From NCBI RefSeq assembly GCF_034627025.1, contig NZ_CP141048.1:2368001-2432000 (forward strand): DNA of 64,000 nucleotides, given 5' to 3'. This DNA is from Microvirga lotononidis. Lineage in GTDB: Bacteria > Pseudomonadota > Alphaproteobacteria > Rhizobiales > Beijerinckiaceae. Shown here piece by piece: positions 44,844-62,157 of this stretch. Position 1 is the first letter of the stretch. The number at the start of each line of letters is the position of its first letter. The position numbers and the translations under genes were made by a program. The notes under the pieces were generated by a model. That model was not told where the DNA came from. It searched no databases and saw only the letters and a list, made by a program, of their open reading frames with translations.

Positions 44844-44879
44844 GTTTGACCTCCGCAGATCCTCTGGAATGGATTCTTT

Positions 44880-45861: not shown

Positions 45862-45925
45862 AAGCCGGAATTGGCAATGCGTCCAATCGTATTGCCCGGA
45901 CGAGGCCAGAGAAACGAGGACGCTG

Positions 45926-47116: not shown

Positions 47117-47129
47117 TCCTGCTCGCAGA

Positions 47130-47155
47130 GCCGTGAGCGGATGAGGGCTTACGGC
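47130..47155. terminator. Hairpin between convergent genes, terminator-like
   Basis: GCCGTGAGC (47130-47138) pairs with GCTTACGGC (47147-47155) with one G-T pair. It lies 14 bases after the amidohydrolase stop and before the convergent rcnA gene. No T-tract follows, so termination is uncertain. Confidence 0.35.
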
Positions 47156-47231
47156 CTCGGTGAGCGATTGGTCGGCGTGCGCCACTCGTTTCAGCACCAT
47201 CGGATGACTTCGGCTGACAGTTTGGCGCTGC

Positions 47232-48365
47232 CTACGACAGGGCCGTCACGGGTGCGGCAAGGTCGACGAAGCCCTGCACCAGCATGACCACGCCGAGGAT
47301 GCCTACAAGGCCAGCCGAGGCGAGCGGCAGGCGCCTGAGCAGATGGTCGGAGAAGTTGACCCGCTTCGCCGCATGCTGCACGCCCCAGGCGGCTGCGACA
47401 CCGATCGACACCATCGTGATCGCCAGCCCCAAGCTGAAGGCCGCGACTGTTGCTGCGCCAAGCGTGAACTGGCCGAGCTGAAGGCAGATCAACAGCACGG
47501 TAATTGACGCAGGGCAGGGGATCAGGCCGCCGGTAATGCCGAACAATGCGATCTGGGCCGTGGTGACGTTGCCGCCGTTGGCCGCGAGCTGGCGGGCGAT
47601 CTGCTCGGCGTGCTCGCGCTCATGCGCGTCCTCGTCATGCTCGGCATGATCATGATGATGTCCGTGATCGTGCTCGGCAAAGGTCGCCTTATAGGTATGG
47701 GCGTGGTCGCCGTGCGACAGACGCAGCCGGGCCGTGAACGCGTGCGGCTCCGGGATTTCCCCGGCTGACTCGAGGTAGCCGTCACGCTCGACGAACCGGA
47801 AACGCTCGCCGGAGCCGTCGTCCCGGATGGTCTCAACCAGCACGTCCTCGGCTCTCCACGCGCTGCCACTTAAGATCCGCAGACGCCAGCGCGGCGGCAC
47901 GCCGTCTTCGAAAATCGACAGCTCCACGACGCCGTGCCCGGTGTCGATGATCCTTGCCTCGTCGCCATGATGATGAGCGTCATGATCATGGTGATGACCA
48001 TGGTGGCGTTGCCGGAACCAGCCGAGGCTCCGGCCCGTGCGCCAGATCATCCAGGCGGCGATGCCGATGATGATCACGCCCGAGGCGATCAGCAGCCAGC
48101 CCTCGAAGTGCGAGTTCAGGATGTCGCGGCCGAGCGACAGGCCGAGCATGGCCACGATCCAGACCACGAGCGAGTGGGAGAGAGCGGCACAGATGCCGAG
48201 CAGGACGGCCTGCCCGATGGTGCCGCGGATCGCCACGATGTAGGCGGCCATCATGGTCTTGGAGTGGCCGGGCTCCAGCCCGTGCAGGGCGCCGAGCAGC
48301 ACGGCGACGGGAAGATACAGCCAGCCGTTGCTGCCGGACTGAAGAAGTTGAGCAATATCGGGCAT
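47232..48365 (-). CDS. rcnA: Nickel/cobalt efflux protein RcnA
   Basis: A 377-residue NicO-family membrane protein with GALHGLEPGHSKTMMAAYIVA, the HGLEPGH metal-binding motif, and a C-terminal GGLIPCPASITVLL helix. Between them are two His/Asp-rich stretches (RHHGHHHDHDAHHHGD and a second HDHGHHHDH), typical of RcnA but here part of a long hydrophilic insert. It exports Ni(II)/Co(II). It is 57 bases downstream of rcnR on the same strand. The start is uncertain between the ATG at 48365 and a GTG 33 bases upstream. Confidence 0.93.
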   Translation of the reverse strand: MPDIAQLLQSGSNGWLYLPVAVLLGALHGLEPGHSKTMMAAYIVAIRGTIGQAVLLGICAALSHSLVVWIVAMLGLSLGRDILNSHFEGWLLIASGVIIIGIAAWMIWRTGRSLGWFRQRHHGHHHDHDAHHHGDEARIIDTGHGVVELSIFEDGVPPRWRLRILSGSAWRAEDVLVETIRDDGSGERFRFVERDGYLESAGEIPEPHAFTARLRLSHGDHAHTYKATFAEHDHGHHHDHAEHDEDAHEREHAEQIARQLAANGGNVTTAQIALFGITGGLIPCPASITVLLICLQLGQFTLGAATVAAFSLGLAITMVSIGVAAAWGVQHAAKRVNFSDHLLRRLPLASAGLVGILGVVMLVQGFVDLAAPVTALS

Positions 48366-48422
48366 CGGTATTCCAGCAATGTCTCGCGGCGGCGACACTT
48401 CTCCCAGCCGCCCGGGAGGAGG

Positions 48423-48701
48423 TCACTTCAGGTAGGTACGGACGACGTCGATGAGTTCGGCCGCGCCCTTGGCGCGCTCCGGATCCGGCTCATGCGCCGG
48501 GTCGACGACGTGGTTGCGGATGTGGTCCTCCATCAGCTCGACGGTCAGGCCGTTCACGGCTCCGCGCACCGAAGCGACCAGCATCAGCACGTCGGCACAG
48601 CCGAGCTCGGCCTCGAGCGCACGCTCGATGGCTTCCACCTGACCCTTGATCCGGCGGACGCGGGCGAGCAGCTTCGTCTTTTCCTTGATGGTGTGGGACA
48701 T
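48423..48701 (-). CDS. rcnR: Nickel/cobalt-responsive repressor RcnR
   Basis: A 92-residue CsoR/RcnR-family all-helical repressor. The four RcnR metal ligands are all present: His3 (MSHTIKEK), Cys35, His60 and His64. This separates it from FrmR- and CsoR-type members. Metal binding releases DNA and lets rcnA be expressed. GAGGAGG before the ATG at 48701 supports this start and puts His3 in place; an extra eight-residue leader is possible. A G-tract operator sits 30 bases upstream. Confidence 0.95.
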   Translation of the reverse strand: MSHTIKEKTKLLARVRRIKGQVEAIERALEAELGCADVLMLVASVRGAVNGLTVELMEDHIRNHVVDPAHEPDPERAKGAAELIDVVRTYLK

Positions 48702-48730
48702 GCCGCCTCCTCTGCGAGTGCTCATGTCAT

Positions 48731-48747
48731 ATAGGGGGGTACCCTAT
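48731..48747. promoter_or_regulatory. RcnR operator
   Basis: ATAGGG-GGGTA-CCCTAT forms an inverted repeat around a G6 tract, 30 bases before the rcnR start. RcnR is known to bind a G/C tract flanked by A/T inverted repeats. It fits autoregulation of rcnR-rcnA. Confidence 0.78.
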
Positions 48748-48992
48748 GTACGTCGAGCGTCAGGATGGCCGCAGGGCCTTTGGCGGATCCGGGTGCTCCC
48801 CGAGCCGACAGGTGGGGCGTGGTTCCGGAGACGGCGTAAGCCGCCGTAACGGGGGGAGGTCGGTTCGGCCTGACAGGTCAAATAGGCGACTTCATGTCAC
48901 CCGAGCCGGCATCCTTGGCTTCCATCGAGAGCGAGCCGACGGGCAGACCGGGAATGGATCCTGAGCCATCGCGAAGGTCTCGACCTGTCGGA

Positions 48993-50762
48993 TCACTTCC
49001 AGCTTCCGACGCCGAGATCCTCACGGCGCTGAGCGTCCAGGAGCGCGGAGGCCAGCGCGAATGCATCCCGAGCGCGGATGCAGCCGACGATCTTGTTGCG
49101 GTCCTCGAAACCGATCACGGCCAATGTGGCCCGGTCGTCGCTGCGGAAGATGTCGAGCACCTCCGCAAGGGATGCGGCCGGCGTCACGATCGGACCCGAC
49201 TCGTAGACCAGTTCCGCGGCCACCACGGGCAGGTCGGCACTCTCGGCCTCGATCGCCTCGACCAGGCGAGGATCGATCAGGCCAAGGAAGGTTCCGTCCA
49301 CCGCATAGACGGCCGTACCGCGCGCGCCTGCCGTCGACAGCGCCCGGCGAACCTCCTCCAGGCTGGCATTGGCCATCACCGCCCGCTTCGGCGGCTTGAT
49401 GATCTCGCCGATCGTCGCGGCCTCTAGGCGCGAGACGTCGTGACCGCCCTCGATGGCGAGGCCACGCTGCTGGAAGCGCCAGGTTGCGAACGAGTAGCCG
49501 AACAGACGGTCTGTCAGGAACGAAGCGGTCAGGGCCCCGATAGCCACCAGGATGGTGGCGTCGAAGTCCCCGGTGGTCTCGAGGACCAGGAAGATCATCG
49601 CCAGCGGACTGCCGATCACGCTCGCTCCGACCGAGGCCATGCCGATCACGGCGCACAGGGCCGGGCTCCAGGTCGGAGCACCCGGGATGAAGGCCAACAG
49701 CCAGGCCATCACCTGTCCCAGCAGGGCGCCGATCATGAGCGAGGCGCCGAACAGGCCGCCGCGAAAGCCGGATCCGAGGCTGGCCGCGGAGGCCAGCCCC
49801 TTCGCGGCCAGCAGACCGAGGGCATGGCGACCGGCGATGTCGCCGGACACGGCATGCTCGATGGCCGCATGACCGCTACCCAGGACGGCCGGGAAGCGGG
49901 TCGCCAGTGCCGTGAGGAGAAGGGCGGCCGCGAGCCGGCGCAGAATCCCGTCCCTCAGGAAACGCTTGAGGAGGCGCTCCATCGCCGAGACCAGAAGCAT
50001 GACGACGATGCCGACGAAGGCCGCGATGCCGCCGAGCAGGACGGCCAGAGGATAGTCGGACCAGGATGTGCCGGGCCCTGTCTCGAGGCTGAAGGGCCGC
50101 GCCTGTCCCAGGAGCAGCCAGATCGTCATCACGGCCGCGATAGCGCCGAGCCCGATCGGGGCCAGGGTCCGGCGTGAGAAGGTCCCCAGCAGCAGCTCAT
50201 AGGCATAGAGCATGCCGGCGATCGGTGCCCTATAGGCGGCGGCGATGGCGGCTGCGGCACCGACGGCCACCAGCAGGCGCAGGTCGGAGCGCGGCCGGTT
50301 CAGCCTTCGTCCGAGGCGGCTGGCGAGCACGGCCCCAAGCTGGGTGACGGCGGCCTCGATTCCGACCGAGGCTCCGAAACAGACCGAGGCGAGGATCGGG
50401 ATGACGACTCCCGTGGCATCGTACCAGCCCATCCTGCCCCCGTTGAGGGCATTCGCCTCGACCGCGTCGACGGGGTCCTTGGTCTTCCAGCGCCCGATCA
50501 GATGCGACAGCAGGGTGACAAGGAAGGCGCTGCAGGCCAGGGCCAGAGCGATCCTGAGGAAGGAGGCGTGGTCCGGCAGGACGATCCGCCGCTCTGCGGC
50601 GAAGCCGAGCATGGCGCGCTGCGCGAAGACGACGAATTGCTGCACGACCGCCACCATCACGCCCGTCAGGATGCCGATCACGATGGCGAGACCAACCAGA
50701 CGGAACGAGCCTGTCGGCTTGCGAATGTTCGGGAGCGCCGGAAGGCGAGGGGGAAGCAGCAT
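48993..50762 (-). CDS. ClC family chloride channel/antiporter with CBS domains
   Basis: A 589-residue membrane protein with about 10-12 helices and a C-terminal pair of CBS domains (about 460-580, with TIGEIIKPPKRAVMANASL). The ClC filter segments are recognisable: GIEAAVTQLGA in place of GREGP (gating Glu kept, Pro changed to Ala) and SGFRGGLFGASL. It moves chloride or fluoride-like anions; the class cannot be fixed from motifs. A 56-residue upstream extension exists but is basic and without helices, so the ATG at 50762 is preferred. Confidence 0.85.
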   Translation of the reverse strand: MLLPPRLPALPNIRKPTGSFRLVGLAIVIGILTGVMVAVVQQFVVFAQRAMLGFAAERRIVLPDHASFLRIALALACSAFLVTLLSHLIGRWKTKDPVDAVEANALNGGRMGWYDATGVVIPILASVCFGASVGIEAAVTQLGAVLASRLGRRLNRPRSDLRLLVAVGAAAAIAAAYRAPIAGMLYAYELLLGTFSRRTLAPIGLGAIAAVMTIWLLLGQARPFSLETGPGTSWSDYPLAVLLGGIAAFVGIVVMLLVSAMERLLKRFLRDGILRRLAAALLLTALATRFPAVLGSGHAAIEHAVSGDIAGRHALGLLAAKGLASAASLGSGFRGGLFGASLMIGALLGQVMAWLLAFIPGAPTWSPALCAVIGMASVGASVIGSPLAMIFLVLETTGDFDATILVAIGALTASFLTDRLFGYSFATWRFQQRGLAIEGGHDVSRLEAATIGEIIKPPKRAVMANASLEEVRRALSTAGARGTAVYAVDGTFLGLIDPRLVEAIEAESADLPVVAAELVYESGPIVTPAASLAEVLDIFRSDDRATLAVIGFEDRNKIVGCIRARDAFALASALLDAQRREDLGVGSWK

Positions 50763-50980
50763 CAGGCGAGTGGGGTGAGAAGCAGCAAGTGCGCGGGGTG
50801 CACGCGGTTTGGGCGTGTCGGCCTTTGCCGTCAACCCATTTCGGCTTGGATGTACCCTTAATGCTGCACCCGTGAGGAGGCGAAGAGCGGGGCCCCGCAT
50901 GGTCCATGCTTTTTGCCGCACCAAAGGCAAGGGGCATTGGCGGGTCGATCGCCGGAACGAAGATCAGTCACGGACGGCCC

Positions 50981-51029
50981 TTGCATATCAATAAGAAATA
51001 TCTAAATTAGAAATATCTGATTTAGATAG
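50981..51029 (+). promoter_or_regulatory. bigR promoter with BigR-type operator
   Basis: TTGCAT (50981-50986) and TAAATT (51003-51008) are 16 bases apart. The operator TAAATTAGA...ATTTAGATA spans 51003-51029 and contains the inverted repeat TATCTAAAT (50999-51007) / ATTTAGATA (51020-51028). It matches the site at 56933-56959 in 22 of 27 bases. Confidence 0.82.
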
Positions 51030-51037
51030 GTGTACGA

Positions 51038-51373
51038 ATGCCCGGCTTGGAACTCGATCTTGAGACGTTTGAACAGAAGGCGACCGAGGTCGCGGACATT
51101 CTGCGGGCACTCGCGAACGAACGACGGCTGATGATCCTGTGCAAGCTGGTGGAGTGGGGTGAGGCCAACGTCACCTCGCTTGTCGAGGCCGTCGGACTGT
51201 CGCAATCGGCCTTGTCGCAGCATCTGGCCAAGATGCGGGACGAGGGCATCGTCACCACCCGGCGCGAGAGCCAGACGATCTGGTACCGCATCGCCGATCC
51301 TCGCATCGAGCAGCTCTTCGGCCTTCTCTACGAGCTGTATTGCAAGCAGGCCAAGACGGACAAGTCCGCCTGA
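51038..51373 (+). CDS. bigR: ArsR family repressor, BigR/SqrR type
   Basis: A 111-residue winged-helix repressor (ANERRLMILCKLVEWGEAN, VGLSQSALSQHLAKMRDEGI). Cys35 and Cys102 match the two conserved cysteines that form a polysulfide bridge in persulfide sensors BigR and SqrR. When oxidised by sulfane sulfur they release DNA. Its own promoter carries the operator, and a second copy is in front of the persulfide dioxygenase-like gene at 57014. It heads an operon with the YeeE/YedE-type transporter genes. Confidence 0.93.
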   Translation: MPGLELDLETFEQKATEVADILRALANERRLMILCKLVEWGEANVTSLVEAVGLSQSALSQHLAKMRDEGIVTTRRESQTIWYRIADPRIEQLFGLLYELYCKQAKTDKSA

Positions 51374-51385
51374 TCGGAGGCAATT

Positions 51386-51811
51386 ATGGACAATCTCACA
51401 CCTGTGTCGGCGCTGTTCGGCGGCCTTCTGATCGGAACGTCGGCTGCCCTGTTCCTGGTGCTGAATGGGCGTATCGCGGGCATCAGCGGCATCCTCGGCG
51501 GCCTGATCCCGCCCGAGCGTGGTCAGGTCGGCTGGCGCCTCGCCTTCCCGGCCGGGATGCTCGTCTCGACCCCGATCTACCTCATGGCCGGTGGCACGTT
51601 GCCGCCGGTCAAGATCGGCGCATCCCTGCCTGTGCTGATCGTGGCGGGGTTGATCGTCGGGTTCGGCACGCGTCTGGGGGCGGGCTGCACCAGTGGCCAT
51701 GGCGTCTGTGGCATCGGACGAGGCTCACCGCGTTCCATCGTGGCGACGCTCGTTTTCATGGCCACTGCCGTCACTACGGTCTTCCTCGCTCGTCACGTCA
51801 TCGGAATGTAA
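51386..51811 (+). CDS. YeeE/YedE-type sulfur transporter, first half (PmpA-like)
   Basis: A 141-residue membrane protein with four to five helices and [20 protein letters not shown], the Cys-rich motif of YeeE/YedE proteins that move thiosulfate or sulfane sulfur. It is 12 bases after bigR and three bases before the second half. Together the two proteins make one transporter; the split form is common in alphaproteobacteria. Confidence 0.93.
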
Positions 51812-51814
51812 GCC

Positions 51815-52273
51815 ATGCCCCTGCTCCTGTCCGCCTTTGCGTCGGGTCTGCTGTTCGGCCTCGGATTGATCGTGTCTCAGATGGTCAACCCGGCCAAGGT
51901 GCTCGGCTTTCTCGACATTTTCGGCCACTGGGACCCGAGCCTCGCTCTGGTCATGGGCGTCGCCGTGGCGATGTCGGCGCTGGGTACCCTCGTCGCGAGG
52001 CGGCGTGGAATGCCCGTGCTGGCGCCATGCCTTGAGATCCCGACCCGGCGCGACCTCGACCCGCGGCTGATCGGCGGGGCAGCCCTGTTCGGAATCGGCT
52101 GGGGCCTTGTCGGTCTCTGCCCGGGCCCGGCCTTGGTCGGGCTGACTTTCGGTCCGTGGGAGGTCCTCGTCTTCGTGGCCGCCATGATCGTCGGCATGGC
52201 GATCTTCCGCCTTGTGCCTGCCGATTGGCCGCAGGTCTCCTTCCGCCGCGAGGCCTCGCAGATGGATGGCTGA
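51815..52273 (+). CDS. YeeE/YedE-type sulfur transporter, second half (PmpB/DUF6691)
   Basis: A 152-residue membrane protein with LLFGLGLIVSQMVNPAKVLGFLD and the Cys-containing WGLVGLCPGPALVGLTFG loop. It pairs with the preceding gene as the second half of a YeeE/YedE-type transporter. It is convergent with the oxidase operon, whose last small gene ends 19 bases away. Confidence 0.92.
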   Translation: MPLLLSAFASGLLFGLGLIVSQMVNPAKVLGFLDIFGHWDPSLALVMGVAVAMSALGTLVARRRGMPVLAPCLEIPTRRDLDPRLIGGAALFGIGWGLVGLCPGPALVGLTFGPWEVLVFVAAMIVGMAIFRLVPADWPQVSFRREASQMDG

Positions 52274-52291
52274 GCATCCGTTCTTCACCGA

Positions 52292-52417
52292 TCAGCCGAG
52301 CAGCCAAGCCCTCAGGACGAGGCTGACGGCTCCGGTGACGCCGACGCCGGCGGCCCAGAGGCCCGCGAACCACAGCCATTGCCTGAGAGCGGAGCCTTGT
52401 TCGAGATCGTTGCCCAT
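52292..52417 (-). CDS. DUF2474-type 41-residue membrane protein of the bd oxidase operon
   Basis: A 41-residue single-pass protein (MGNDLEQGSALRQWLWFAG, then AAGVGVTGAVSLVLRAWLLG). It follows cioB with an ATGA overlap, exactly as CydX/CioZ-type small subunits do. DUF2474 proteins are found beside cyanide-insensitive bd oxidases. The role is probably in oxidase assembly or stability. It is easily missed because of its length. Confidence 0.85.
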   Translation of the reverse strand: MGNDLEQGSALRQWLWFAGLWAAGVGVTGAVSLVLRAWLLG

Positions 52418-53424
52418 CAGTGATATCCCTCGTGTCCCGTCTTGCCGCGGAACACCCAATACGCATATCCGGTATAGGCGAGAATGATCGGGATCAGCAC
52501 GCTCGCGCCGACCAGCATGAACTGAAGGCTGGCATGCGGCGCCGCGGCCTCATGGATGGTGACGGCGTTCGGCACCACGTGCGGGAACATGCTGATGCCC
52601 AGCCCGACGAGGCAGAGGGCGAACAGCCCCAGCGTCAGCAGGAACGGCCAGTATTCCCAGCGGCGCATCAGGCTCACCACGAGCGCCCCGGAGCAGAGGC
52701 CGACGAGCAGCGGCACCTGGGCGGTGAACAGGACCTGTGGCCAGGCGAACCAGCGCTCGTAATAGGCGCCGCTCAAAAACGGTGTCGCCGCGCTCACGAG
52801 TCCGATGCAGATGATCAGGCCGATCGCGAGCTTGCCGGCAAGGCGGAAGCTGTGGTCCTGGACGGCACCCTCGGTCTTCATGACGAGCCAGGTCGCGCCG
52901 AGCAGGGCATAACCGATCACGAGGCTGACGCCGACCAGCAGGCTGAACGGCGTGAGCCAATCCCACCATCCGCCGGCGTAGGAGCGACCCTCGACCGCGA
53001 TGCCCTGGAGGAGCGCGCCGAGCGTGATGCCCTGTGCCAGCGTTGCCGCCACCGAGCCCGTCGTGAACGCGAAGTCCCAGTAACGGCGATGGCCGGGGTC
53101 GCGCCAGCGGAACTCGAAGGCGACGCCGCGGAAGATCAGCGCCAGCACCATGGCGATGATCGGCGCATAGAGGGCAGGCAGGATGATGGCATAGGCCAGC
53201 GGGAAGGCCGCCATCAGGCCGCCGCCCCCGAGCACGAGCCAGGTTTCGTTGCCGTCCCAAACCGGCGCGACCGAGTTCATGGCACTGTCGCGCTCCGGTC
53301 CCGGGCTGAAGAACGGGAACAGGATGCCGATGCCGAGGTCGAAGCCGTCCATCACCACATAGGCGAAGACTGCGAACGCGATGACGAAGGCCCAGAGAGT
53401 GGGGAGATCGAGGAGGGTCGCCAT
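52417..53424 (-). CDS. cioB: Cyanide-insensitive bd-type quinol oxidase subunit II
   Basis: A 335-residue membrane protein with YVVMDGFDLGIGILFPFF, VWDGNETWLVLGGGGL and AYTGYAYWVFRGKTGHEGYH, as in CydB/CioB. It holds no heme of its own but forms the dimer with subunit I. It follows cioA by three bases. The partner's short Q-loop points to the CIO subgroup. Confidence 0.95.
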   Translation of the reverse strand: MATLLDLPTLWAFVIAFAVFAYVVMDGFDLGIGILFPFFSPGPERDSAMNSVAPVWDGNETWLVLGGGGLMAAFPLAYAIILPALYAPIIAMVLALIFRGVAFEFRWRDPGHRRYWDFAFTTGSVAATLAQGITLGALLQGIAVEGRSYAGGWWDWLTPFSLLVGVSLVIGYALLGATWLVMKTEGAVQDHSFRLAGKLAIGLIICIGLVSAATPFLSGAYYERWFAWPQVLFTAQVPLLVGLCSGALVVSLMRRWEYWPFLLTLGLFALCLVGLGISMFPHVVPNAVTIHEAAAPHASLQFMLVGASVLIPIILAYTGYAYWVFRGKTGHEGYH

Positions 53425-53427
53425 GGG

Positions 53428-54849
53428 TTACGCCTTTGCGCCGAGGGTGCGGGCCGGGTTGACAGCCGGGGCCGGTGTGATGCCGGCGGTCCGGATCGGA
53501 TCGCGTCCGGCCTCGGGCCCGGTCTCACCCGCATGCGGCGGCTTGGCCATGAGCTTGAGGATGTATCCGGTGCCGGCGCCGAACACGATGAAATAGACTA
53601 CGATGAAGGTGAGAAGCGAGGCCGCCACGGCCGGAGCTTCGAGCGGCGAAGCCGAAACGGCTGTCCTGAGCAGGCCGTAGACGGTGAAGGGCTGGCGGCC
53701 GACCTCGGTCGTCACCCAGCCGGCGATGACTGCCACGAAGCCTGAAGGTCCCATCAGCAGCGCCAGCCGGTGCAGCAGGCGCCAGTCGTAGAGCCGGCCG
53801 CGCCAGCGGGCGAGGAGGCTGAGCGCTCCGAGGCCGAGCATCGCGAATCCCAAGGCCACCATGATGCGGAACGACCAGAACACCACCGGCACGTAGGGCC
53901 AGTCGGCACGGTCGATGGTATCGAGTCCGTTCAAGGGTGCGTTCAGGTCATGCTTGAGGATAAGCGAGGAGGCTTTCGGGATCTCGATGGCATGGCGCAC
54001 CGTGCCGGCTTCCTGGTCGGGAATGCCGAACAGGATCAGGGGCGCGCCCTCGGGATGGCTCTGGAAGTGTCCTTCCATCGCCATGACCTTGGCGGGCTGG
54101 TGCTCGAGGGTGTTGAGGCCATGCATGTCGCCGGCCAGGATCTGCAACGGGGCGACGATGGTGATCATGCCCATGGCCATCGAGAACATCACCCGGGCAC
54201 CCTTGTTGGTGCGCTCGCGCAGGAGATGCCAGGCTCCGACCCCGCCGACCACCAAGGCGGTGGTGAGATAGGCGGCGAACACCGTATGGACGAGGCGATA
54301 GGGGAAGGATGGATTGAAGATGATCGCCCACCAATCCTCCGGCACGAATTGCCCGGCTTCGTTGATGGCGTAGCCGACGGGCGTCTGCATCCACGAGTTG
54401 GCGGACAGGATCCAGAAGGCCGAGATGAAGGTGCCGACCGCAACCGCGAGCGTGGCGGCGAAGTGCAGCTTGCGGCCGACCCGTCCCATGCCGAACAGCA
54501 TGATGCCGAGGAAACCCGCCTCCAGGAAGAACGCGGTCATGACCTCATAGGCCATCAACGGACCGATGACCGGTCCGGCCTTATCGGAGAACACGGCCCA
54601 GTTGGTGCCGAACTGGTAGGACATGACGATGCCGGAGACCACGCCCATGGCGAAGGCGAGGGCGAAGATCTTGAGCCAGTACTTGAACAGGTTGAGATAG
54701 ACCTCGCGGCCGGTCCAGAGCCACAGCCCCTCCAGAACGGCGAGATAGCTCGCCAGCCCGATCGAGAAGGATGGGAAGATGAAGTGGAAGGTGACCGTGA
54801 ACGCGAACTGGAAACGCGCCAGGAGCAGGGCGTCGAACTGGTCGAACAT
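53428..54849 (-). CDS. cioA: Cyanide-insensitive bd-type quinol oxidase subunit I
   Basis: A 473-residue heme-bearing subunit. His22 (TFHFIFP) is the heme ligand near the N-terminus, and LVHTVFAAYL carries the second His. GDMHGLNTLEHQPAKVMAMEG marks the Q-loop region, which is short, as in CIO-type rather than E. coli CydA. It oxidises quinol and reduces O2 to water. Sulfide does not strongly inhibit bd oxidases, which suits its place among sulfide-response genes. It lies two bases after the regulator gene. Confidence 0.95.
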   Translation of the reverse strand: MFDQFDALLLARFQFAFTVTFHFIFPSFSIGLASYLAVLEGLWLWTGREVYLNLFKYWLKIFALAFAMGVVSGIVMSYQFGTNWAVFSDKAGPVIGPLMAYEVMTAFFLEAGFLGIMLFGMGRVGRKLHFAATLAVAVGTFISAFWILSANSWMQTPVGYAINEAGQFVPEDWWAIIFNPSFPYRLVHTVFAAYLTTALVVGGVGAWHLLRERTNKGARVMFSMAMGMITIVAPLQILAGDMHGLNTLEHQPAKVMAMEGHFQSHPEGAPLILFGIPDQEAGTVRHAIEIPKASSLILKHDLNAPLNGLDTIDRADWPYVPVVFWSFRIMVALGFAMLGLGALSLLARWRGRLYDWRLLHRLALLMGPSGFVAVIAGWVTTEVGRQPFTVYGLLRTAVSASPLEAPAVAASLLTFIVVYFIVFGAGTGYILKLMAKPPHAGETGPEAGRDPIRTAGITPAPAVNPARTLGAKA

Positions 54850-54851
54850 TT

Positions 54852-55436
54852 TTACTTTTCCTTGGGGTCTTCGCGGCGGCTCTTCTTCGATCCGGGCACG
54901 ACGAAGAGACGGTCCTTCATCTCGAGGATTTTCTGCACCTTCGAGCCGAGCGTCAGGAGCTGGACGAGGCGCTCGGTATCGAGCCGCTGCACATCGGCGT
55001 ACCAGCCGGTCAGGAGCTCGAAGAGGTCGTGCATGTCGCGCATGCGCTCCTGGGCGTGGCGCTCTTCGGCGCTCGCCGGCTCCTGCATGAGCACCTCGCG
55101 CAGGAGCGTCATGGTCGGGTCGATCTCGCGCTTCTTGCGCTCCTCGACCAGGGTGCGGACGATCTGCCAGATGTCGTCGGGCGTGGCGAAGTAGTCGCGC
55201 CGGTCGCCGGGCTTGTGCTGGAGCCGCACGAGGTTCCAGGCCTGCAACTCCTTCAGGCCCATGCTGACGTTGGAGCGGGAGACGCCGAGTCGCTCGACGA
55301 TGTCCTCGGCGTTCAGCGGCTCCTTGGAGAGGTAAAGCAGGGCGTAAATCTGACCGACGGTGCGGTTGATCCCCCAGCGCGAGCCCATCTCGCCGAAATG
55401 CAGCACGAAGGTTTGGACAAGAGGAGGGAGGTTCAC
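54852..55436 (-). CDS. GbsR/MarR-type regulator of the bd oxidase operon
   Basis: A 194-residue winged-helix protein (PLVQTFVLHFGEMGSRWGIN at the start, LNAEDIVERLGVSRSNVSMG, LKELQAWNLVRLQHKPGDRR) with a helical dimerisation region after residue 100. It begins the operon gbsR-like-cioA-cioB-DUF2474. I chose the GTG at 55436 because AGGA is seven bases upstream, the family usually starts with NLPP-type residues, and an ATG at 55478 would lie inside the promoter -10 and operator. The longer form adds 14 residues. Confidence 0.85.
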   Translation of the reverse strand: MNLPPLVQTFVLHFGEMGSRWGINRTVGQIYALLYLSKEPLNAEDIVERLGVSRSNVSMGLKELQAWNLVRLQHKPGDRRDYFATPDDIWQIVRTLVEERKKREIDPTMTLLREVLMQEPASAEERHAQERMRDMHDLFELLTGWYADVQRLDTERLVQLLTLGSKVQKILEMKDRLFVVPGSKKSRREDPKEK

Positions 55437-55450
55437 GGTGTGTCCTGAAA

Positions 55451-55495
55451 TTTCAGAATTTTCTGAAATATCGGACATCGATTGACGTAAGTCAA
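55451..55495 (-). promoter_or_regulatory. bd oxidase operon promoter, Fnr/FixK-like box and palindrome
   Basis: On the reverse strand TTGACT (55490-55495) and GATATT (55467-55472) are 17 bases apart. TTGAC-GTAA-GTCAA (55482-55495) is a perfect Fnr/FixK-type box overlapping the -35. TTTCAGAA-TT-TTCTGAAA (55451-55468) is a palindrome with 8-bp arms over the start point, probably the site of the GbsR-like protein itself. Confidence 0.75.
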
Positions 55496-55581
55496 GGATC
55501 GGCGGGCCCGGACGCTTGCAGCCATCCCCGCCGGGCCGGTGTCATGAGGGGTAAGCCTCGCTGGGTTCTCGGCGGACGCGG

Positions 55582-56025
55582 CTATCCGGCATCCGGCGGT
55601 GGATTGCGGGAAGCCGCCTCGATCCGAGGGCGCAAGGCGTCCAGGTCGTATCCGGCATCCGCAGCCATCCGCAGGATCACATCGGGCGCAAGGTGACGGG
55701 CCGAAGCGAGGGCCCACAGGCTGGCGGAGCGGGTGCCGGTCCGGCACAAGGCGAGGGTCGGCCCGGTGCCCGCCGCGAGGGCCTCCTTGAACGCCTCCAC
55801 CTGCTCGGGCGACATCTGGCCAGGAATGACCGGGATGTGCCGGTAGGCGAGACCCAGGCGATGGGCCGCCGCCGCGAGGGTGTCGCTCGATGGCTGGTCC
55901 GGAGCCTCGCCGTCCGGGCGGTTGTTGATGATGGACCGGAAGCCTGCGGCGGCAGCCTGCTGCAGATCCTCCGGACTGAGCTGAGGCGCGACCGAGAGGT
56001 TGTCCGTGAGCTTGGCGATTTTCAT
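55582..56025 (-). CDS. DUF442 / TIGR01244 sulfur-transferase-type protein
   Basis: A 147-residue protein of the phosphatase-like DUF442 group, with LTDNLSVAPQLSPEDLQQAA at the start and the P-loop CRTGTRS (Cys-x5-Arg) near residue 94. In BigR-regulated operons this domain occurs fused or next to a persulfide dioxygenase and probably moves sulfane sulfur. It is 48 bases downstream of the TauE-type exporter gene on the same strand. Confidence 0.9.
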   Translation of the reverse strand: MKIAKLTDNLSVAPQLSPEDLQQAAAAGFRSIINNRPDGEAPDQPSSDTLAAAAHRLGLAYRHIPVIPGQMSPEQVEAFKEALAAGTGPTLALCRTGTRSASLWALASARHLAPDVILRMAADAGYDLDALRPRIEAASRNPPPDAG

Positions 56026-56073
56026 GGATCGTCTCCTAGAGGTTAGAGAATTGCCGCTGACGTTCTCTGAGCG

Positions 56074-56856
56074 TCACAGCAGGTTGAGGCTCTTGACCAG
56101 CATGTAGATTGCGACGGCGAAGATCAGGCCGGCGAAGACGTTGTTGAGGGCCCCCTTCCTGACCGCGAGCTTCGATGCGAGGCTGGCGCCGAGCAGGCCG
56201 CCGAGGATGCCGCCGCCGATGAACAGCCCGGCCAGGGGCCAGTCGACCAGACCCGAGAAGGCGTAGTTCGCCGCTGTGGTCAGGCCGAAGCCGGTCACCG
56301 CCACGAGCGAGGAGCCGACCGCGTAGAGGATCGGCATCCCGGTTGCCAGGATCAGCCCCGGCACGATCAGGAAGCCGCCGCCGATGCCGAAGAAGCCTGA
56401 AAGGGCGCCGGTCGCGAGGCCGATGCCGACCAGCTTGAAAAAGTTCTCCCGGCCGAGCCGCACGCCGTCGTCCCCCTCGCCGGAGCGCTTGCGCAGCATG
56501 AGGGCGCCGACCGCCATCATCAGCACGGCGAAGAGGGCGAGAAGCTTCTGGCCGTCGACCATTTTGCCAATGGTGGAGCCGCCGAAGGCGCCGATGACGC
56601 CGGCAACCGTGAAGACCAGGGCGCAGCGCCATTTCACGTTTCTGGCGCGGGCATGGGTGCCGAGATTGACCGCGGCATTGGCCGCCACGGCCACCGCGCT
56701 GGTGCCGATCGCCACATGCGGGTTCGTGACTCCCACCAGATAGACCAGCAGCGGCACGGCCAGGATCGAGCCGCCTCCGCCCACGAGCCCGAGCGTGAAG
56801 CCGACGAGGGAGCCCGAGGCCAGTCCGAGGGCGCTTTGAAAAAGCGAAAGCGTCAT
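56074..56856 (-). CDS. TauE/SafE family sulfite exporter-like protein
   Basis: A 260-residue membrane protein of about eight helices with GFTLGLVGGGGSILAVPLLV and its repeat GFFGIGGGFLIVPGLI, characteristic of TauE/SafE. It probably exports sulfite or thiosulfate made by persulfide oxidation. AGGAGA five bases before the ATG at 56856 decides the start. Its promoter region contains the second BigR-type operator. Confidence 0.93.
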   Translation of the reverse strand: MTLSLFQSALGLASGSLVGFTLGLVGGGGSILAVPLLVYLVGVTNPHVAIGTSAVAVAANAAVNLGTHARARNVKWRCALVFTVAGVIGAFGGSTIGKMVDGQKLLALFAVLMMAVGALMLRKRSGEGDDGVRLGRENFFKLVGIGLATGALSGFFGIGGGFLIVPGLILATGMPILYAVGSSLVAVTGFGLTTAANYAFSGLVDWPLAGLFIGGGILGGLLGASLASKLAVRKGALNNVFAGLIFAVAIYMLVKSLNLL

Positions 56857-56932
56857 GGGGTCTCCTGAGCCGGACCACGTCGTCCCCCTGCGAAGGGTGG
56901 GCAAGGAGCAGCTCCGGTTGGTTTGCTACTTT

Positions 56933-56976
56933 TAAATTAGAGATTGCTTATTTAGATATATCTTATATATTGTCAA
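56933..56976. promoter_or_regulatory. Divergent promoters with BigR-type operator
   Basis: The operator TAAATTAGA...ATTTAGATA spans 56933-56959. For the reverse (TauE-like) operon, TTGACA is at 56971-56976 and TAAATA at 56949-56954, 16 bases apart. For the forward hydrolase, TTGCTT is at 56944-56949 and TATATT at 56966-56971, 16 bases apart. The operator overlaps core elements of both promoters, so one repressor could silence both. Confidence 0.8.
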
Positions 56977-57013
56977 TAGCGAACGAGACATCGAGGAGAT
57001 GGAGATTCAGATC

Positions 57014-57898
57014 ATGTCAGGCCGACCCACCATCCGGGCGTTCTTCGACGAACCCACCAATACGGTGAGCTATCTCGTGGCCGATCCTGCGACTAGGAAA
57101 GCAGCGATCATCGATCCGGTCTTTGACTACGATCATAATTCCGGCACGGTCGATACGCGCTCCGTCGAGGCGATGCTCAAGGCTGCCGAGGAGGCGGGTT
57201 ACGTGGTCGAATGGGTGCTCGAGACACACGCCCATGCCGACCACCTGTCCGGTGCGCCCTACATCAAGGCCAAGACCAGGGCGAAGATCGGCATCGGCGA
57301 ACACATCACCGAGGTGCAGCGGATCTTCCGGCCGATCTTCAACGCCACCGACCTGGACACCAGCGGCCGCGACTTCGACCATCTGTTCAAGGACGGCGAG
57401 CACTTCACGATCGGCGACCTCGACGTGGAAGTGCTGCACACGCCCGGCCATACGCCGGCGGACATCGCCTACAGGATCGAGAACGCAGTGTTCGTCGGCG
57501 ACACGATGTTCATGCCGGATTACGGCACGGCGCGCGCCGACTTCCCGGGGGGCGATGCGCATAAACTCTATCGCTCGATCCAGCGCCTGCTCGCGCTGCC
57601 GCCTGAGACGCGCCTGTTCATGTGCCACGACTACAAGGCGCCGGGTCGCGACATCTATGCCTGGGAAACCACGGTCGCCGATGCGCGGAACAACGTTCAC
57701 CTGAAAGACGGCGTCACGGAGGACGAGTTCGTGGCGATGCGCCAAGGGCGAGACGCCAAGCTCGCAGCCCCGCGCCTTCTTCTGCCCTCGATCCAGACCA
57801 ATATCCGGGCCGGTAAATTCCCGCCCGCCGAGGCCAACGGCGTACGCTATCTGATGATCCCGGTGACGCTGAAAGGTGGCGCGGAGGAGGTTGTCTAG
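57014..57898 (+). CDS. blh: Persulfide dioxygenase-like metallo-hydrolase (Blh)
   Basis: A 294-residue metallo-beta-lactamase-fold enzyme. THAHADHLSGA carries the metal-binding HxHxDH motif, followed by LHTPGHTP, VFVGDTMF and CHDY. This pattern fits ETHE1/Blh persulfide dioxygenases, which oxidise glutathione persulfide to sulfite. In other alphaproteobacteria blh is a BigR target, and here a BigR-type operator covers the promoter. I chose the ATG at 57014, with GGAG nine bases upstream. The TAG stop lies in a repeat element. Confidence 0.93.
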   Translation: MSGRPTIRAFFDEPTNTVSYLVADPATRKAAIIDPVFDYDHNSGTVDTRSVEAMLKAAEEAGYVVEWVLETHAHADHLSGAPYIKAKTRAKIGIGEHITEVQRIFRPIFNATDLDTSGRDFDHLFKDGEHFTIGDLDVEVLHTPGHTPADIAYRIENAVFVGDTMFMPDYGTARADFPGGDAHKLYRSIQRLLALPPETRLFMCHDYKAPGRDIYAWETTVADARNNVHLKDGVTEDEFVAMRQGRDAKLAAPRLLLPSIQTNIRAGKFPPAEANGVRYLMIPVTLKGGAEEVV

Positions 57899-57931
57899 AG
57901 TATCGGACACGCATGCGACGCCGCGTCCGAT
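57895..57931. repeat. Divergent family 2 repeat at the end of blh
   Basis: CTAGAGTATCGGAC begins inside the blh stop codon. ATCGGAC (57902-57908) pairs with GTCCGAT (57925-57931). The rest of the gap to 58185, between convergent genes, shows only a weak AGGCGA/TCGCCT hairpin near 58052 and no gene. Confidence 0.55.
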
Positions 57932-58185
57932 GCGTCACGCTTCCGGTTCCGCGCCTCTTACGTAAGACGGGCTCCCGCTTTGGCATGCGATGCCTGCCAA
58001 TCCGTGCCGGTCCGCCGCACCGGCGTGGGTCGGAAAACATGTTGCAGGGAGGCGAAGATTCGCCTTCTCCGCTGACTAGATCTCACGATGCTCACTGCCG
58101 CCTGATCAGACCCGGCCAGAGCGCCTCCTCGAACGATACTGCCGAGGGGGCGCAACCTTGCTGGGTCGATGAGGATCGACGCATA

Positions 58186-59643
58186 TTAGTTCTTCAGGCG
58201 ATAATCCAAAGGCGGGTTCCGGTCGCCGATCAGAGCCGAGTAGGAGAACGATCCGCCGCGTGCCCGATCGAATTCCGCCTTGGCGTCTGCGACCAGCTTC
58301 GGCGACTGGAACAACTCGACGACTGTCGTGGCGAGCGTCTCGGCGGCCAGCCGCGTCCCCTTGTGGCCGATCGACATGCCCCCGGCAGCAACGGCTTGCC
58401 AGCTATGCGTCGCCGTGCCCGGCACCCACGTAGCCGTGCCCAGGCCGACCGTCGGCACGACCCAGCTCACGTCTCCGACATCCGTGGAATAGAAGCCCTG
58501 CTTTCCGAATGAATAATCCTCGATCTCCGACACCGACGAAAGAGGAGGCTTCGTGCGAAGCGTTTTCTGAAGTTCGGTGGCAAACGCGGTTTCCTCAGGC
58601 GTCCATTTGATCGCTCCCGCGGCACGCAGATTGCGATCCATGGCTCTTCCGAGCACGTCGTTCGGGAGCACGGAGTACACGCCGCCCAGGCGCTCGATGG
58701 AAGCTTTCGTTCCTGTCCCCAGGGCCGCACCTTCGGCGGTCTTCGTGATCCACTCGAAAACCTCGCCGACCACTCTCGGATCCGGATGACGGACGTAGAG
58801 GTAACTCTCGGCGAAATCCGGCACGACGTTCGGTGCCGCTCCGCCATTCGTGGTCACGTAATGGATCCGCGTCTCCTGCGGGACATGTTCACGCATGAGG
58901 TTAATCATGTGATGCATGGCCTCGAGACCATCGAGCGCCGAACGCCCGCGCTCCGGCTGCATCGCCGCATGGGCGGATTCGCCCTTGAAGCGGATCTTCG
59001 CGCTGACATTGGCGAGCGAGCGCCCCTGCTCGGTCGAGTTCGAGTCCGAGGGGTGCCAGTGCAGGGCGACATCGACATCGTCGAACAGGCCACTGCGGAC
59101 CATGTAAACCTTGCCCGACCCGCCTTCCTCAGCCGGCGTTCCATACAGGCGGATCTGGCCGTCGACCCGATTGTCCTTCAGCCACTGAGCGACCGCGATG
59201 GCTGCCGCGACCGATCCGGCTCCGAACAGATGATGCCCGCAGGCATGGCCGCTGGCGAGGCCTTCCACGGCCTGCTGTTGCGGTGCGGCGGCCTGCGAAA
59301 AGCCCGGTAGCGCGTCCATCTCGGCGAGAAGCCCTATGACCGGTCCAGTGTCCGTGCCGTAGCGTGCGACAAAGGCGGTCGGAATCCCGGCGACATTCCG
59401 CTCGACCTTGAATCCATGAGCTTCCAGCTCCTTGATCAGCAGGTCTGCGGTTGCCGTTTCCAGGTAGCCCAGTTCGGGATGCTTCCAAATGGTGTCAGCC
59501 ACATCGTTCATGCGGGGAGCGTAGTTGCTCACGGCGCGAACGACCTGACCGCGTTGCTCGGCCGTCAGCGGTTCGGCGAAAGCCTGCGGCGCGGCGGTCA
59601 GTAATAAGGACAAGGCGATCATCCGTAGGCTTCCTGTCATCAT
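58186..59643 (-). CDS. Exported M20-family amidohydrolase (AbgB-like)
   Basis: A 485-residue metal-dependent amidohydrolase with a Sec signal peptide (MMTGSLRMIALSLLLTAAP, cleavage after AFA), so it is probably periplasmic. GHACGHHLFGAGS and GTPAEEGGSGK carry the metal ligands and catalytic Glu of the M20 aminoacylase/carboxypeptidase group. The AbgB branch splits p-aminobenzoyl-glutamate and similar amides. It is the last gene of a reverse operon, 174 bases after its cytoplasmic paralog. AGGAGA six bases before the ATG at 59643 decides the start. Confidence 0.9.
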   Translation of the reverse strand: MMTGSLRMIALSLLLTAAPQAFAEPLTAEQRGQVVRAVSNYAPRMNDVADTIWKHPELGYLETATADLLIKELEAHGFKVERNVAGIPTAFVARYGTDTGPVIGLLAEMDALPGFSQAAAPQQQAVEGLASGHACGHHLFGAGSVAAAIAVAQWLKDNRVDGQIRLYGTPAEEGGSGKVYMVRSGLFDDVDVALHWHPSDSNSTEQGRSLANVSAKIRFKGESAHAAMQPERGRSALDGLEAMHHMINLMREHVPQETRIHYVTTNGGAAPNVVPDFAESYLYVRHPDPRVVGEVFEWITKTAEGAALGTGTKASIERLGGVYSVLPNDVLGRAMDRNLRAAGAIKWTPEETAFATELQKTLRTKPPLSSVSEIEDYSFGKQGFYSTDVGDVSWVVPTVGLGTATWVPGTATHSWQAVAAGGMSIGHKGTRLAAETLATTVVELFQSPKLVADAKAEFDRARGGSFSYSALIGDRNPPLDYRLKN

Positions 59644-59817
59644 CTGGTTCTCCTGTGACCGACGCGGAGTATGGTGCTTGAGGTCCGCCGAATAAAGCAA
59701 GATCGAACCCCTGTCGGTGTGGCGGCCCAGGAACACGCTCTCGGTCGCTTCAACCGAGAGGGGGCACATGGGCCGACAACCTGTTCAACTCCGCGAGAAT
59801 CCGCGGTCAGGAAAAGC

Positions 59818-61236
59818 TCAGCCGCGCGACATATCCAACGGCGGCTCGACGCCTTCACGAAGCGGGCTCACATACGGGGTTTCCCGCGTTCTCTCTGCAA
59901 GGTCCGCCTTGGCGGCGGCGATCAGGGACGGGTCGGTGATCGCGGCCATGCCGGTCGCGGCCATCGCCTTGGCGACATGCACCATCGCCTTGTGCGCCGC
60001 CGGCATCTTGCCCTGGGCCACGACCTGCCACGTGTGGAACGGCGTACCGATCGCAACCGTCGGCGCGTGGGCCTGCACGGTGGGAACCACCCAGCTCACG
60101 TCGCCGATATCGGTCGAGCCGATCATGGGCTTGCGCGGCGAGTCGAGAGGCGTCAGGAAATCGGCCAGGGGAGCATCGGTCCTCGGCTGGCCGATGGCGC
60201 GGTAGACGGATGCGATCTCCTGGTCCGACAGGGTCGCGCGGATCTTGCGGGCGAAGTCACGGTCGGAATCGTCGAACGGCGGCGCTCCGAGCTCTTCCAT
60301 GGCGTTGTGCAGCGCATGTTCCAGCGGCGTGTTCCCGAGCGTATTCGAGACTGCGCTGACGATGCGCATCTCGACGCTGGTCTCCGTCATGAGCGCGGCT
60401 CCCTGGGCGATCTTGTGCACGCGCTCGACGAGGTCGAGCATGCCCTGGAGATCCATGGCGCGGATCGAATAGCGCACGCGGGCGTAAGCCTGCACCACGT
60501 TCGGCGCGATGCCGCCCGTGTCGAGCAGGGCGTAATGCACACGGGCATCCGAGGGCATGTGCTCGCGCATGTAGTTCACGCCCACATTCATCAGCTCGAC
60601 GGCGTCGAGTGCGCTGCGGCCCAGATGGGGCGATGCAGCCGCGTGAGCCGCGCGGCCCCTGAAGGCGAAGTCGGCGCGGGTGTTGGCCAGCGACAAGGCG
60701 GGCGCGACCTCCCAGAAGCTGTAGGGATGCCAGGAGATCGCGATATCGGCATCGTCGAAGGCGCCGGCGCGCACCATGAAGGCCTTGGCCGCGCCGCCTT
60801 CCTCGGCCGGGCAGCCATAATACCGGACGCGGCCCGGAATGCCTTTCTCCGCAAGCCAGTTCTTCAGAGCGACGGCGGCCAGCATGGCGCCCGATCCCAG
60901 GAGATTGTGGCCGCATCCGTGGCCATGGCCGCCGGCCTCGATGGGACGATGCTCCGCGACGCCGGATTCCTGGCTGAGCCCCGGAAGGGCATCGTACTCG
61001 CCGAGGAATGCGATGACCGGACCGCCGTCGCCGGCTTCGCCGATGACGGCGGTCGGAATGCCCGCGACACCTTCGGTGACGCGAAAGCCTTGGTGGCGCA
61101 GTTCCGCGGCATGCTCGGCGGCCGAGCGCACCTCGGTATAGCAGACCTCCGGCATCCCCCAGATGCGGTCGCTCAATTCGATGAGGCGGCTCTTCGCAGC
61201 ATCCACATGCTGCCAGATCTCGTTTCGGACGTTCAT
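59818..61236 (-). CDS. Cytoplasmic M20-family amidohydrolase (AbgB-like)
   Basis: A 472-residue paralog of the preceding product without a signal peptide. GHGHGCGHNLLGSGA and GCPAEEGGAAK carry the metal-site residues. The C-terminal GDVSWVVPTVQAHAPTVAIG segment is shared with its paralog (GDVSWVVPT). It probably hydrolyses an amide bond of the imported compound after uptake by the DppDF-type transporter. It lies 48 bases after the alpha/beta hydrolase gene. Confidence 0.92.
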   Translation of the reverse strand: MNVRNEIWQHVDAAKSRLIELSDRIWGMPEVCYTEVRSAAEHAAELRHQGFRVTEGVAGIPTAVIGEAGDGGPVIAFLGEYDALPGLSQESGVAEHRPIEAGGHGHGCGHNLLGSGAMLAAVALKNWLAEKGIPGRVRYYGCPAEEGGAAKAFMVRAGAFDDADIAISWHPYSFWEVAPALSLANTRADFAFRGRAAHAAASPHLGRSALDAVELMNVGVNYMREHMPSDARVHYALLDTGGIAPNVVQAYARVRYSIRAMDLQGMLDLVERVHKIAQGAALMTETSVEMRIVSAVSNTLGNTPLEHALHNAMEELGAPPFDDSDRDFARKIRATLSDQEIASVYRAIGQPRTDAPLADFLTPLDSPRKPMIGSTDIGDVSWVVPTVQAHAPTVAIGTPFHTWQVVAQGKMPAAHKAMVHVAKAMAATGMAAITDPSLIAAAKADLAERTRETPYVSPLREGVEPPLDMSRG

Positions 61237-61284
61237 GTCTTGCTCCAGAATCGGGTCGTGAACGGTCGTCGCAGCTCTGCCGCG

Positions 61285-62157
61285 TTACAATGCGCCCACT
61301 TCGGCGGTGATCAACTCGTCAGCCGATGGAATGCGCCCCTCGAACCAGTAAGCGGCGGCCGCGCGAGACATGGCGGCACCGTCATGGCCCACTCCTTCGA
61401 CGTGGATCAATTTCCAATGGAACGGAAGTCCAAGACGTTCGGCTTCGCGGCGCGCGAAATCGTAGACGAACTGCGCACGCGCATAGCGATGCGGCCCTTG
61501 CCGCAGGGCTTCCGCCTGGGCCGGCAGGTTCGGGTCGTCGGTGCTGATATCCTGATCGCCCGCGAAGATGTGCATGGGATAGGCGAACCAGCGAGCCATG
61601 CTGGTTTCATCGAGGCCGAGACCGCCGAGCCCTTCAGGGAAGCTGCGCTCCAAAGTCGGCAGGGTGTACCAGCCCGGATTACCTGCGGCGACCGCATCGA
61701 ACGATCCATGGTCCTGCGTGGCGAGCATCCGGTGCGCGAACTGCCCCCCGGCCGAGTGACCGAAGAGTCGCGCCTTCTGGCGGCGCGTCACGCCGCCCTT
61801 CTGCAGGGCCGCGAAGACGCGGGCCGGGACGGCGTAGAGCCACTTCTCGACAGGGCTTGTGCTTCCGTCGCTCCCTATGACCAGACCGTTGTTGTACGAT
61901 TCCGGGCCTGGAAAAGACGCATCGGAGAAGGTCGGCGCTGCAATCAGGATGCGGTGCTTCTCGGCGGCGGGAATCCAGAAATCCCGATACTCGTCGCCGT
62001 TGCGGAGCATGCCGTGCTGGACGATGACGACCGGATCGTCGGGACCATGGCCGGCCGGGCGGTAGAAGTTGACGTCGATCTGCCTGTCGGGGTGATGCGC
62101 GTCGACGAAGGGAAGCGTGCTGCGGCCGGTCTCGGGGCTAAGCGTGGTTGTCGTCAT
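61285..62157 (-). CDS. Alpha/beta hydrolase
   Basis: A 290-residue esterase-like protein with nucleophile Ser135 in GHSAGG, a likely acid in FAGDQDISTDD and a likely His in GVGHDG. VVIVQHGMLRNGDEYRDFW resembles the depolymerase/feruloyl esterase group. No signal peptide is seen. It overlaps the DppF-like stop by four bases, so it acts with the transporter and the M20 enzymes, perhaps on an ester of the same compound. Confidence 0.85.
   Translation of the reverse strand: MTTTTLSPETGRSTLPFVDAHHPDRQIDVNFYRPAGHGPDDPVVIVQHGMLRNGDEYRDFWIPAAEKHRILIAAPTFSDASFPGPESYNNGLVIGSDGSTSPVEKWLYAVPARVFAALQKGGVTRRQKARLFGHSAGGQFAHRMLATQDHGSFDAVAAGNPGWYTLPTLERSFPEGLGGLGLDETSMARWFAYPMHIFAGDQDISTDDPNLPAQAEALRQGPHRYARAQFVYDFARREAERLGLPFHWKLIHVEGVGHDGAAMSRAAAAYWFEGRIPSADELITAEVGAL

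Follow-up and report, generated by a model that had tools for sequence, protein, structure and literature searches.

A BigR-type persulfide locus around a bd oxidase operon with its own predicted CydE/CioR-type switch: a probable two-repressor sulfide tolerance island in Microvirga lotononidis

The resistance of bd oxidases to sulfide and the sensing of persulfide by BigR-type repressors are known as separate facts. A 64,000-nucleotide stretch of the Microvirga lotononidis genome (contig NZ_CP141048.1 of assembly GCF_034627025.1, positions 2,368,001 to 2,432,000; the whole stretch is the window to which all plain coordinates refer) brings the two together, with a bd oxidase operon, cio, lying between genes for sulfur transport, sulfur transfer, persulfide oxidation and sulfite export, headed by a BigR-like repressor gene. 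Does the persulfide sensor govern the oxidase, or is the oxidase a neighbour with a switch of its own? A first interpretation made from the letters of the DNA (the sequence-only reading) held that a pair of BigR operators brackets the island and puts cio under BigR. We find it more probable (roughly 0.75 for the explanation as a whole) that this is a sulfide/persulfide tolerance island with two repressors, BigR for the sulfur half and CioR for the oxidase half, in which the co-location of oxidase and persulfide genes is functional and recurrent.

The operator pair was noticed as two 27-base elements, at 51003-51029 and 56933-56959, sharing 22 of 27 bases, and direct reading of the sequence bears this out. 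Their register cuts across the underlying repeat, the unit of which is a 14-bp palindrome, TTAG-N6-CTAA. Each site holds two such palindromes, with up to one mismatch, spaced 15 bp from start to start, defining one double operator, without strand, upstream of bigR (50992-51020; units 50992-51005 and 51007-51020) and another between tauE and pdo (56937-56965; units 56937-56950 and 56952-56965); a repeat finder returns the two places as mutual inverted copies with 34-nt arms that are 85% complementary. When the whole genome (7,316,924 bases in four contigs) was scanned with the pattern TAAATNAGNNATNNCTNATTTA at up to three mismatches, as the sequence-only reading had proposed for its consensus, exact matches were confined to these two places; overlapping neighbour copies, 15 bp from each, carry two and three mismatches, three further, unrelated places match with three, and nothing else in the genome matches with two or fewer. 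The reversed pattern, used as a control, matches one place per strand, and Rfam has no match in the window.

Comparison across the genus supports the assignment of both sites to BigR that had been proposed. Among 32 Microvirga loci with a BigR match above 60% (the window included), an exact unit pair lies near a start in 24, a single unit in five and none in three (L114, L124 and L125, which were kept in the set, the BigR match of the last two being partial); at least one unit lies near a bigR, pdo or tauE start in 29. Unit matches in these loci (500,142 bases) number 61 near such starts versus nine elsewhere, and 12 were counted in 27 comparison loci that have no BigR match above 60% (392,772 bases; L126, with a 45% match, was placed here). 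The double palindromes are in all likelihood BigR-type operators, and BigR most likely controls the promoters of bigR-pmpAB, of tauE-DUF442 and of pdo.

The genes next to these operators support the proposal of a sulfide/persulfide island. The bigR-like gene (51038-51373, plus strand), placed by library search and alignment, encodes an ArsR-family repressor whose Cys35 and Cys102, correctly singled out by the sequence-only reading, align with the cysteines of HlyU, with BigR and SqrR chains among the same matches; because it scores 89.2 bits against the NCBIfam BigR equivalog, under the 155-bit cut-off, we file it as BigR-type and not as a BigR equivalog. It is followed on the same strand by pmpA (51386-51811), a YeeE/YedE half for sulfur transport whose PF04143 match is below cut-off (24.2 versus 27) and which adjoins bigR and pmpB, and by pmpB itself (51815-52273), the DUF6691/YeeE half (PF20398). 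At the far operator, tauE of the sulfite exporter family (56074-56856, minus strand; PF01925; the ATG at 56856 was chosen, the longest frame running from 56904) and a DUF442/TIGR01244 sulfur transferase gene (55582-56025, minus strand; library and Pfam matches) diverge from pdo (56999-57898, plus strand), which encodes a protein of the metallo-beta-lactamase (MBL) fold (PF00753). ETHE1 persulfide dioxygenase is among the 28 PDB matches of the pdo product, the best three of which bear MBL-type names only, and HAHADH and GHTPAD motifs, read by eye, are presumably its metal-ligand motifs; we class it as a putative persulfide dioxygenase-like protein of the ETHE1/PDO kind. What the sequence-only reading labelled blh is here a stand-alone dioxygenase; it and DUF442 are two separate genes, not the DUF442-ETHE1 (Blh) fusion.

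The oxidase genes lie between the sulfur genes, and transcription of the minus strand meets tauE, DUF442, cioR, cioA, cioB and a cydX-like frame in that order. Subunits I and II are encoded by cioA (53428-54849; 473 amino acids; PF01654, 545 bits) and cioB (52417-53424; PF02322, 322 bits), the label cio being taken from the sequence-only reading and from relatives and not from the form of the Q-loop. A 40-residue open frame in the cydX position (52298-52417) has no Pfam match; the other 31 cio loci retrieved from the genus all have a counterpart behind cioB, at 56-95% identity. Upstream, cioR (also cydE; 54852-55436, minus strand) encodes a GbsR-type MarR repressor of 194 amino acids with a MarR_2-type helix-turn-helix (HTH; Pfam); its longest open frame runs from 55478, and conservation favours the GTG at 55436 as its start. 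We assign the product to the CydE/CioR type by its HTH, its adjacency to a bd oxidase and its predicted operator, and not by protein alignment with CydE or CioR.

That operator suggests that the oxidase has its own switch. A predicted cio promoter, TTGACT-17-GATATT (55467-55495, minus strand), has its -10 element overlain by a CydE/CioR-type operator, TATTTCAGAAAATTCTGAAATTTCA (55446-55470, minus strand), which is nearly letter for letter the DNase I footprint of Alishewanella CydE, TATTTCAGAAATTTCTGAAAGTTCA, given as one of two sites in the portion of that report drawn on here (PMC6096048). The palindrome, TTTCAG...CTGAAA, stands just before the conserved cioR start in 22 of 23 Microvirga copies that have CioR (L079 is the exception), preceded in the upstream alignment by a largely conserved TTGACTT...TCAA. 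All 23 cio loci with CioR contain the CydE core at one mismatch or fewer; in 22 of them it is no more than 30 bp from the CioR match, and in L079 it is 3 kb away. The core has at least five mismatches in all nine cio loci without CioR, and no match at three mismatches or fewer in the 27 loci fetched for BigR (L100-L126), four of which have a four-mismatch match. The nine genus cio copies in question (L083, L089, L093-L099) have neither CioR nor its operator.

No BigR unit was found at the cio promoter in the window. The claim that the operators bracket the island is geometrically right, and a scan of 44001-64000 finds no further 14-bp unit (one mismatch or fewer) between the sites; the 22-bp pattern has no match at three mismatches or fewer in 51030-56930, a threshold that weaker sites could escape. 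We therefore reject control of cio by BigR through an operator inside the window. Because cio has its own GbsR/MarR-type repressor and a copy of the CydE site over its -10 element, it is no evident direct target of BigR, and on this point the sequence-only reading was too quick. CioR of the window contains no cysteine, so that it is unlikely to sense persulfide through a thiol.

Two further features touch this switch. The -35 element lies within a dyad, TTGACTTACGTCAA (55482-55495), which is largely conserved before cioR and may serve either as a -35 element or as a box of the FNR/FixK kind; its form, TTGAC-N4-GTCAA, resembles FNR/FixK boxes. A second perfect CydE/CioR-type site in the genome (G000:C3:192386-192403, outside the window; about 1501-1518 of L130) lies immediately upstream of the gene for a DUF983 membrane protein, and DUF983 genes occur near seven cio copies of relatives.

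From the genes, the operator sequences, their conservation and the trees described below, we infer the following scheme. A BigR/SqrR-type dithiol repressor would bind the double operators at bigR-pmpA-pmpB and at the divergent tauE-DUF442 and pdo promoters; persulfide or polysulfide would oxidise its cysteine pair and release it from both, leading to joint production of the sulfur transferase, the dioxygenase, the sulfite exporter and the sulfur transport genes. A predicted cioR-cioA-cioB-cydX transcript would have a promoter to itself, where CioR would repress it through the CydE-type operator over the -10 element, and the bd oxidase would pass electrons to oxygen while sulfide blocks heme-copper oxidases. 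What links the two halves would be their position, perhaps together with read-through from tauE-DUF442, and no operator would be common to both.

Known systems resemble parts of this scheme. The bigR operon of Xylella fastidiosa and Agrobacterium tumefaciens, as presented in the sections of PMC5823870 cited here (which equate HlyU Cys38 with BigR Cys42), shares with the window a cysteine-pair ArsR repressor, DUF442 and ETHE1-type functions and a TauE exporter; the window differs in its separate DUF442 and dioxygenase genes, its two double-operator places, the bd oxidase operon between them and its score under the BigR cut-off. In cydEAB of Alishewanella sp. WH16-1 (PMC6096048) and cioRAB of Chromobacterium violaceum (PMC11837568), as far as the cited portions describe them, a GbsR-type regulator gene precedes the two subunit genes, as in the window, whose operator is nearly identical to that of CydE, and in both the regulator represses an oxidase that confers sulfide resistance; unlike these operons, the window sets its oxidase inside a BigR-type persulfide island and has a CydX-like third gene and a CioR without cysteine. 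The sulfide response of Acinetobacter baumannii likewise combines a BigR operon, TauE, YeeE/YedE and sulfide-induced cydAB, although there cydAB (A1S_1433-1434) lies apart from the BigR-regulated operon (A1S_1878-1876), according to the parts of PMC7315123 consulted.

Several points weigh against the two-repressor explanation. Linkage of cio to bigR is patchy, being found in six of the 25 oxidase-bearing genomes of the genus, a minority state. No sulfide:quinone reductase (SQR) of the Methylobacterium kind was found in the M. lotononidis genome with a DUF442-SQR fusion as query, a search that other SQR types could escape; the DUF442 part of the query alone matches, at E<=1e-10. A regular expression for SQR-like open frames, too strict a pattern, matched nothing. 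The signal for cio may here be something other than sulfide, because CydE is derepressed by sulfate, its expression under sulfide or chromate being called constitutive with data not shown (PMC6096048, in the part cited), and because DNA binding by CioR is disrupted by zinc and iron (PMC11837568, likewise in part). Lastly, loss of the Escherichia coli SqrR/BigR homologue YgaV raises cydAB reads (PMC9774250), which is a precedent for control of a bd oxidase by a BigR-type regulator; unlike the window, YgaV has a broad regulon, about 150 genes by its authors' count, and the portion of that report cited describes no island.

The ygaV result favours the best-placed alternative, that BigR also controls cio through read-through from tauE-DUF442 into cioR-cioA-cioB-cydX, so that persulfide would raise the oxidase despite CioR. 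The DUF442-cioR gap, 145 bp on one strand, holds a G+C-rich hairpin without a T-run, and no T-run terminator was called; tauE, DUF442 and cio are co-directional in three Microvirga genomes (the window, L069 and L070, where cioR is preceded by 145, 341 and 146 bp respectively), and cioAB directly follows tauE in Methylobacterium (L224/L225), in L264 and on seven plasmids, with no CioR-like gene found in the cassette loci. In a further genome (G025, locus L077), bigR and cioR are divergent, and the region between them contains both a BigR double operator and the CydE site, some 90 bp apart. Against read-through stand the same hairpin and the full promoter with its CioR operator, which L069 and L070 also keep, and the rarity of the gene order, which was not seen in the other fetched cio loci (L071-L099, some cut by contig ends). 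We regard control by read-through as a tentative possibility, clearly less probable than separate control by two repressors.

How far the arrangement holds in relatives, where gene names follow homology or record annotation, bears on whether it has any sulfide meaning. In 48 Microvirga genomes (identity thresholds of 88% for a close cioA and 70% for a close bigR; linked, within 10 kb), cioA occurs in 25, bigR in 24, both in 12 and linked pairs in six; partial or weak BigR matches in G014, G037 and G045 were left out of the 24, and G014 and G037 have cio. Co-presence in 12 genomes, against 12.5 expected (25 x 24 / 48), reveals no association by presence. The full gene order of the window is found in three genomes (its own, G009 and G036); G018 has bigR-pmpAB-cio, in G005 cio accompanies bigR and a thioredoxin-like gene, and the contig carries tauE and pdo about 12 kb away, and G025 has the divergent arrangement. 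Outside the genus, 397 genomes of the family contain cio in 49 and BigR in 27, both in two and linked in neither of those two. The conserved linkage that the sequence-only reading had expected of relatives thus stands for six genomes of the genus and is not general.

These counts argue for mere neighbourhood, under which cio would sit in a general stress or metal island (low oxygen, cyanide, metals) without sulfide meaning: most genus copies are not beside bigR, presence shows no association, and a NicO-type exporter, a CLC channel, DsbD and a two-component system lie near linked copies; we count the presumed FNR/FixK-like dyad on this side too. Random placement would yield 0.08 linked pairs in Microvirga and 0.11 in Methylobacterium, whereas six and 13 genomes have them, though these genomes are related and are not independent events; several linked groups stand apart in the trees, and in some genomes the arrangement with pdo and tauE is operon-like. 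We consider neighbourhood without function improbable, more so than read-through. Least probable by far is that the repeat serves a different regulator or is a chance A+T-rich stretch resembling a promoter, for although both sites overlap promoter-like sequence and three of 32 BigR loci lack a unit near a start, the other 29 have one and the M. lotononidis genome holds only two good matches.

Among the genes near linked copies, those for DsbD, a response regulator and a histidine kinase adjoin cioR in two linked genomes (L071, 2139-6118; L081, 12427 onward), and DsbD or two-component-type genes also lie near the Methylobacterium islands L228 and L230.

The proposal that cio was recruited as a sulfide-resistant branch draws its support from beyond the genus; such recruitment recurs in Methylobacterium, in G776 (a member of another family) and on sphingomonad and Agrobacterium plasmids. 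The operators of the window do not place cio under BigR, and the general recruitment claim was stronger than the sequence-only reading could show. A GTDB contig scan with the dioxygenase as query found a bd oxidase in five of the best 80 of 585 loci, namely G009 once more and four Methylobacterium. The Methylobacterium island comprises a DUF442-SQR fusion, tauE, pdo, a peroxiredoxin gene (prx) and one or more ArsR genes; the fusion (L163, 7013-8710; TIGR01244 and NF049943, the latter at 177 bits, below its cut-off of 525) occurs in 19 of 111 Methylobacterium genomes and has cioA within 4 kb in 13 of the 19, the other six being G454, G455, G445, G404, G307 and G370. In G419 and G215, prx-pdo-arsR-tauE-cioA-cioB run on one strand with tauE-cioA gaps of 25 and 26 bp, and neither CioR nor the CydE site was found in this operon; of the unlinked copies in the same cioA group, L255, L257 and L258 have CioR and its site, and others have neither. 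Of 20 Methylobacterium loci, 15 contain a palindrome, CAATATG-N6-CATATTG (no site in the other five), with 17 occurrences in total, versus 2.0 in shuffled sequence, always within 330 bp upstream of a prx, cioA, SQR or tauE start; it was defined on the promoters where it was counted, and the counts are descriptive.

The most compact forms lie further away. In G776, pdo-pmpA-pmpB-DUF442-tauE-cioA-cioB-cydX run in one direction, with a two-cysteine ArsR gene divergent; in the sample of the order, where linkage is a lower bound and PDO places are those among the matches listed, places within 10 kb were found in the M. lotononidis genome and G776 only. Eight plasmid records cover at least 80% of the G776 tauE-cydAB stretch, and the seven viewed (L266-L272; the eighth is unannotated), from Agrobacterium tumefaciens F2 and six sphingomonads, are typed in PLSDB as four conjugative, two mobilizable and one non-mobilizable. 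Their arsR-prx / pdo-pmpAB-(DUF442-SQR)-tauE-cydAB clusters have the functions and the oxidase family of the window; unlike it, they are co-directional without CioR, carry the DUF442-SQR fusion in six of seven, and have prx and arsR divergent from pdo...tauE-cydA-cydB in all. The cassette loci of G776 and the seven plasmids yielded neither a CioR-like gene (E<=1e-6) nor a CydE site (three mismatches or fewer). In the open-licence PMC literature, as judged from titles and abstract openings, we recognised no published operon joining pdo or sqr to a bd oxidase.

In the CioA tree, the Microvirga island, the Methylobacterium operon, a second Methylobacterium group and the plasmid cassette occupy separate parts. 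Because unlinked copies lie between the linked ones, the trees point to about four independent events in which a sulfide island took up a bd oxidase, a reading in which several supporting branches fall below the well-supported level and some inner branches are weak. Well-supported branches of the Microvirga tree force two origins of linkage, the display showing three places; grouped counts of the wider trees, from which unlabelled rows were left out, give one per label. One early linkage followed by many losses is a possible alternative to four recruitments.

We think it slightly better than an even chance that bd oxidases were captured several times by ArsR-controlled persulfide loci in Alphaproteobacteria, giving compact, partly plasmid-borne modules that would sense and oxidise persulfide (often by means of an SQR fused to a sulfur transferase), export sulfite and contribute a sulfide-proof oxidase of their own. 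The window would then be an intermediate, captured by position and strand, with its own CydE-type repressor kept and BigR-driven read-through as a bridge. If so, a unit tying persulfide sensing to a sulfide-resistant oxidase has been assembled repeatedly, also on plasmids typed as conjugative, and the upkeep of respiration would be part of the detoxification programme; the natural variants, which range from a separate repressor through a shared divergent promoter to a full operon, would illustrate how a respiratory branch gains a new signal.

Some neighbouring genes complete the picture. A second dioxygenase paralogue (52%; G000:C1:2450638-2451486, about 5636-6484 of L265), with a peroxiredoxin-like gene upstream, lies outside the window about 25 kb from pdo, and the genome scan gave no BigR-type match there. 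Divergent from bigR is a CLC-type chloride channel gene (48993-50771, minus strand), found in the same place in L069, L070 and L071. Beyond it (47232-48725), a NicO-type exporter gene has a small gene alongside, which is presumably FrmR/RcnR-like, and both also flank the G009 and G018 islands. Downstream of pdo, two adjacent related genes on the minus strand (58186-61236), 39% alike, are presumably amidohydrolase-like.

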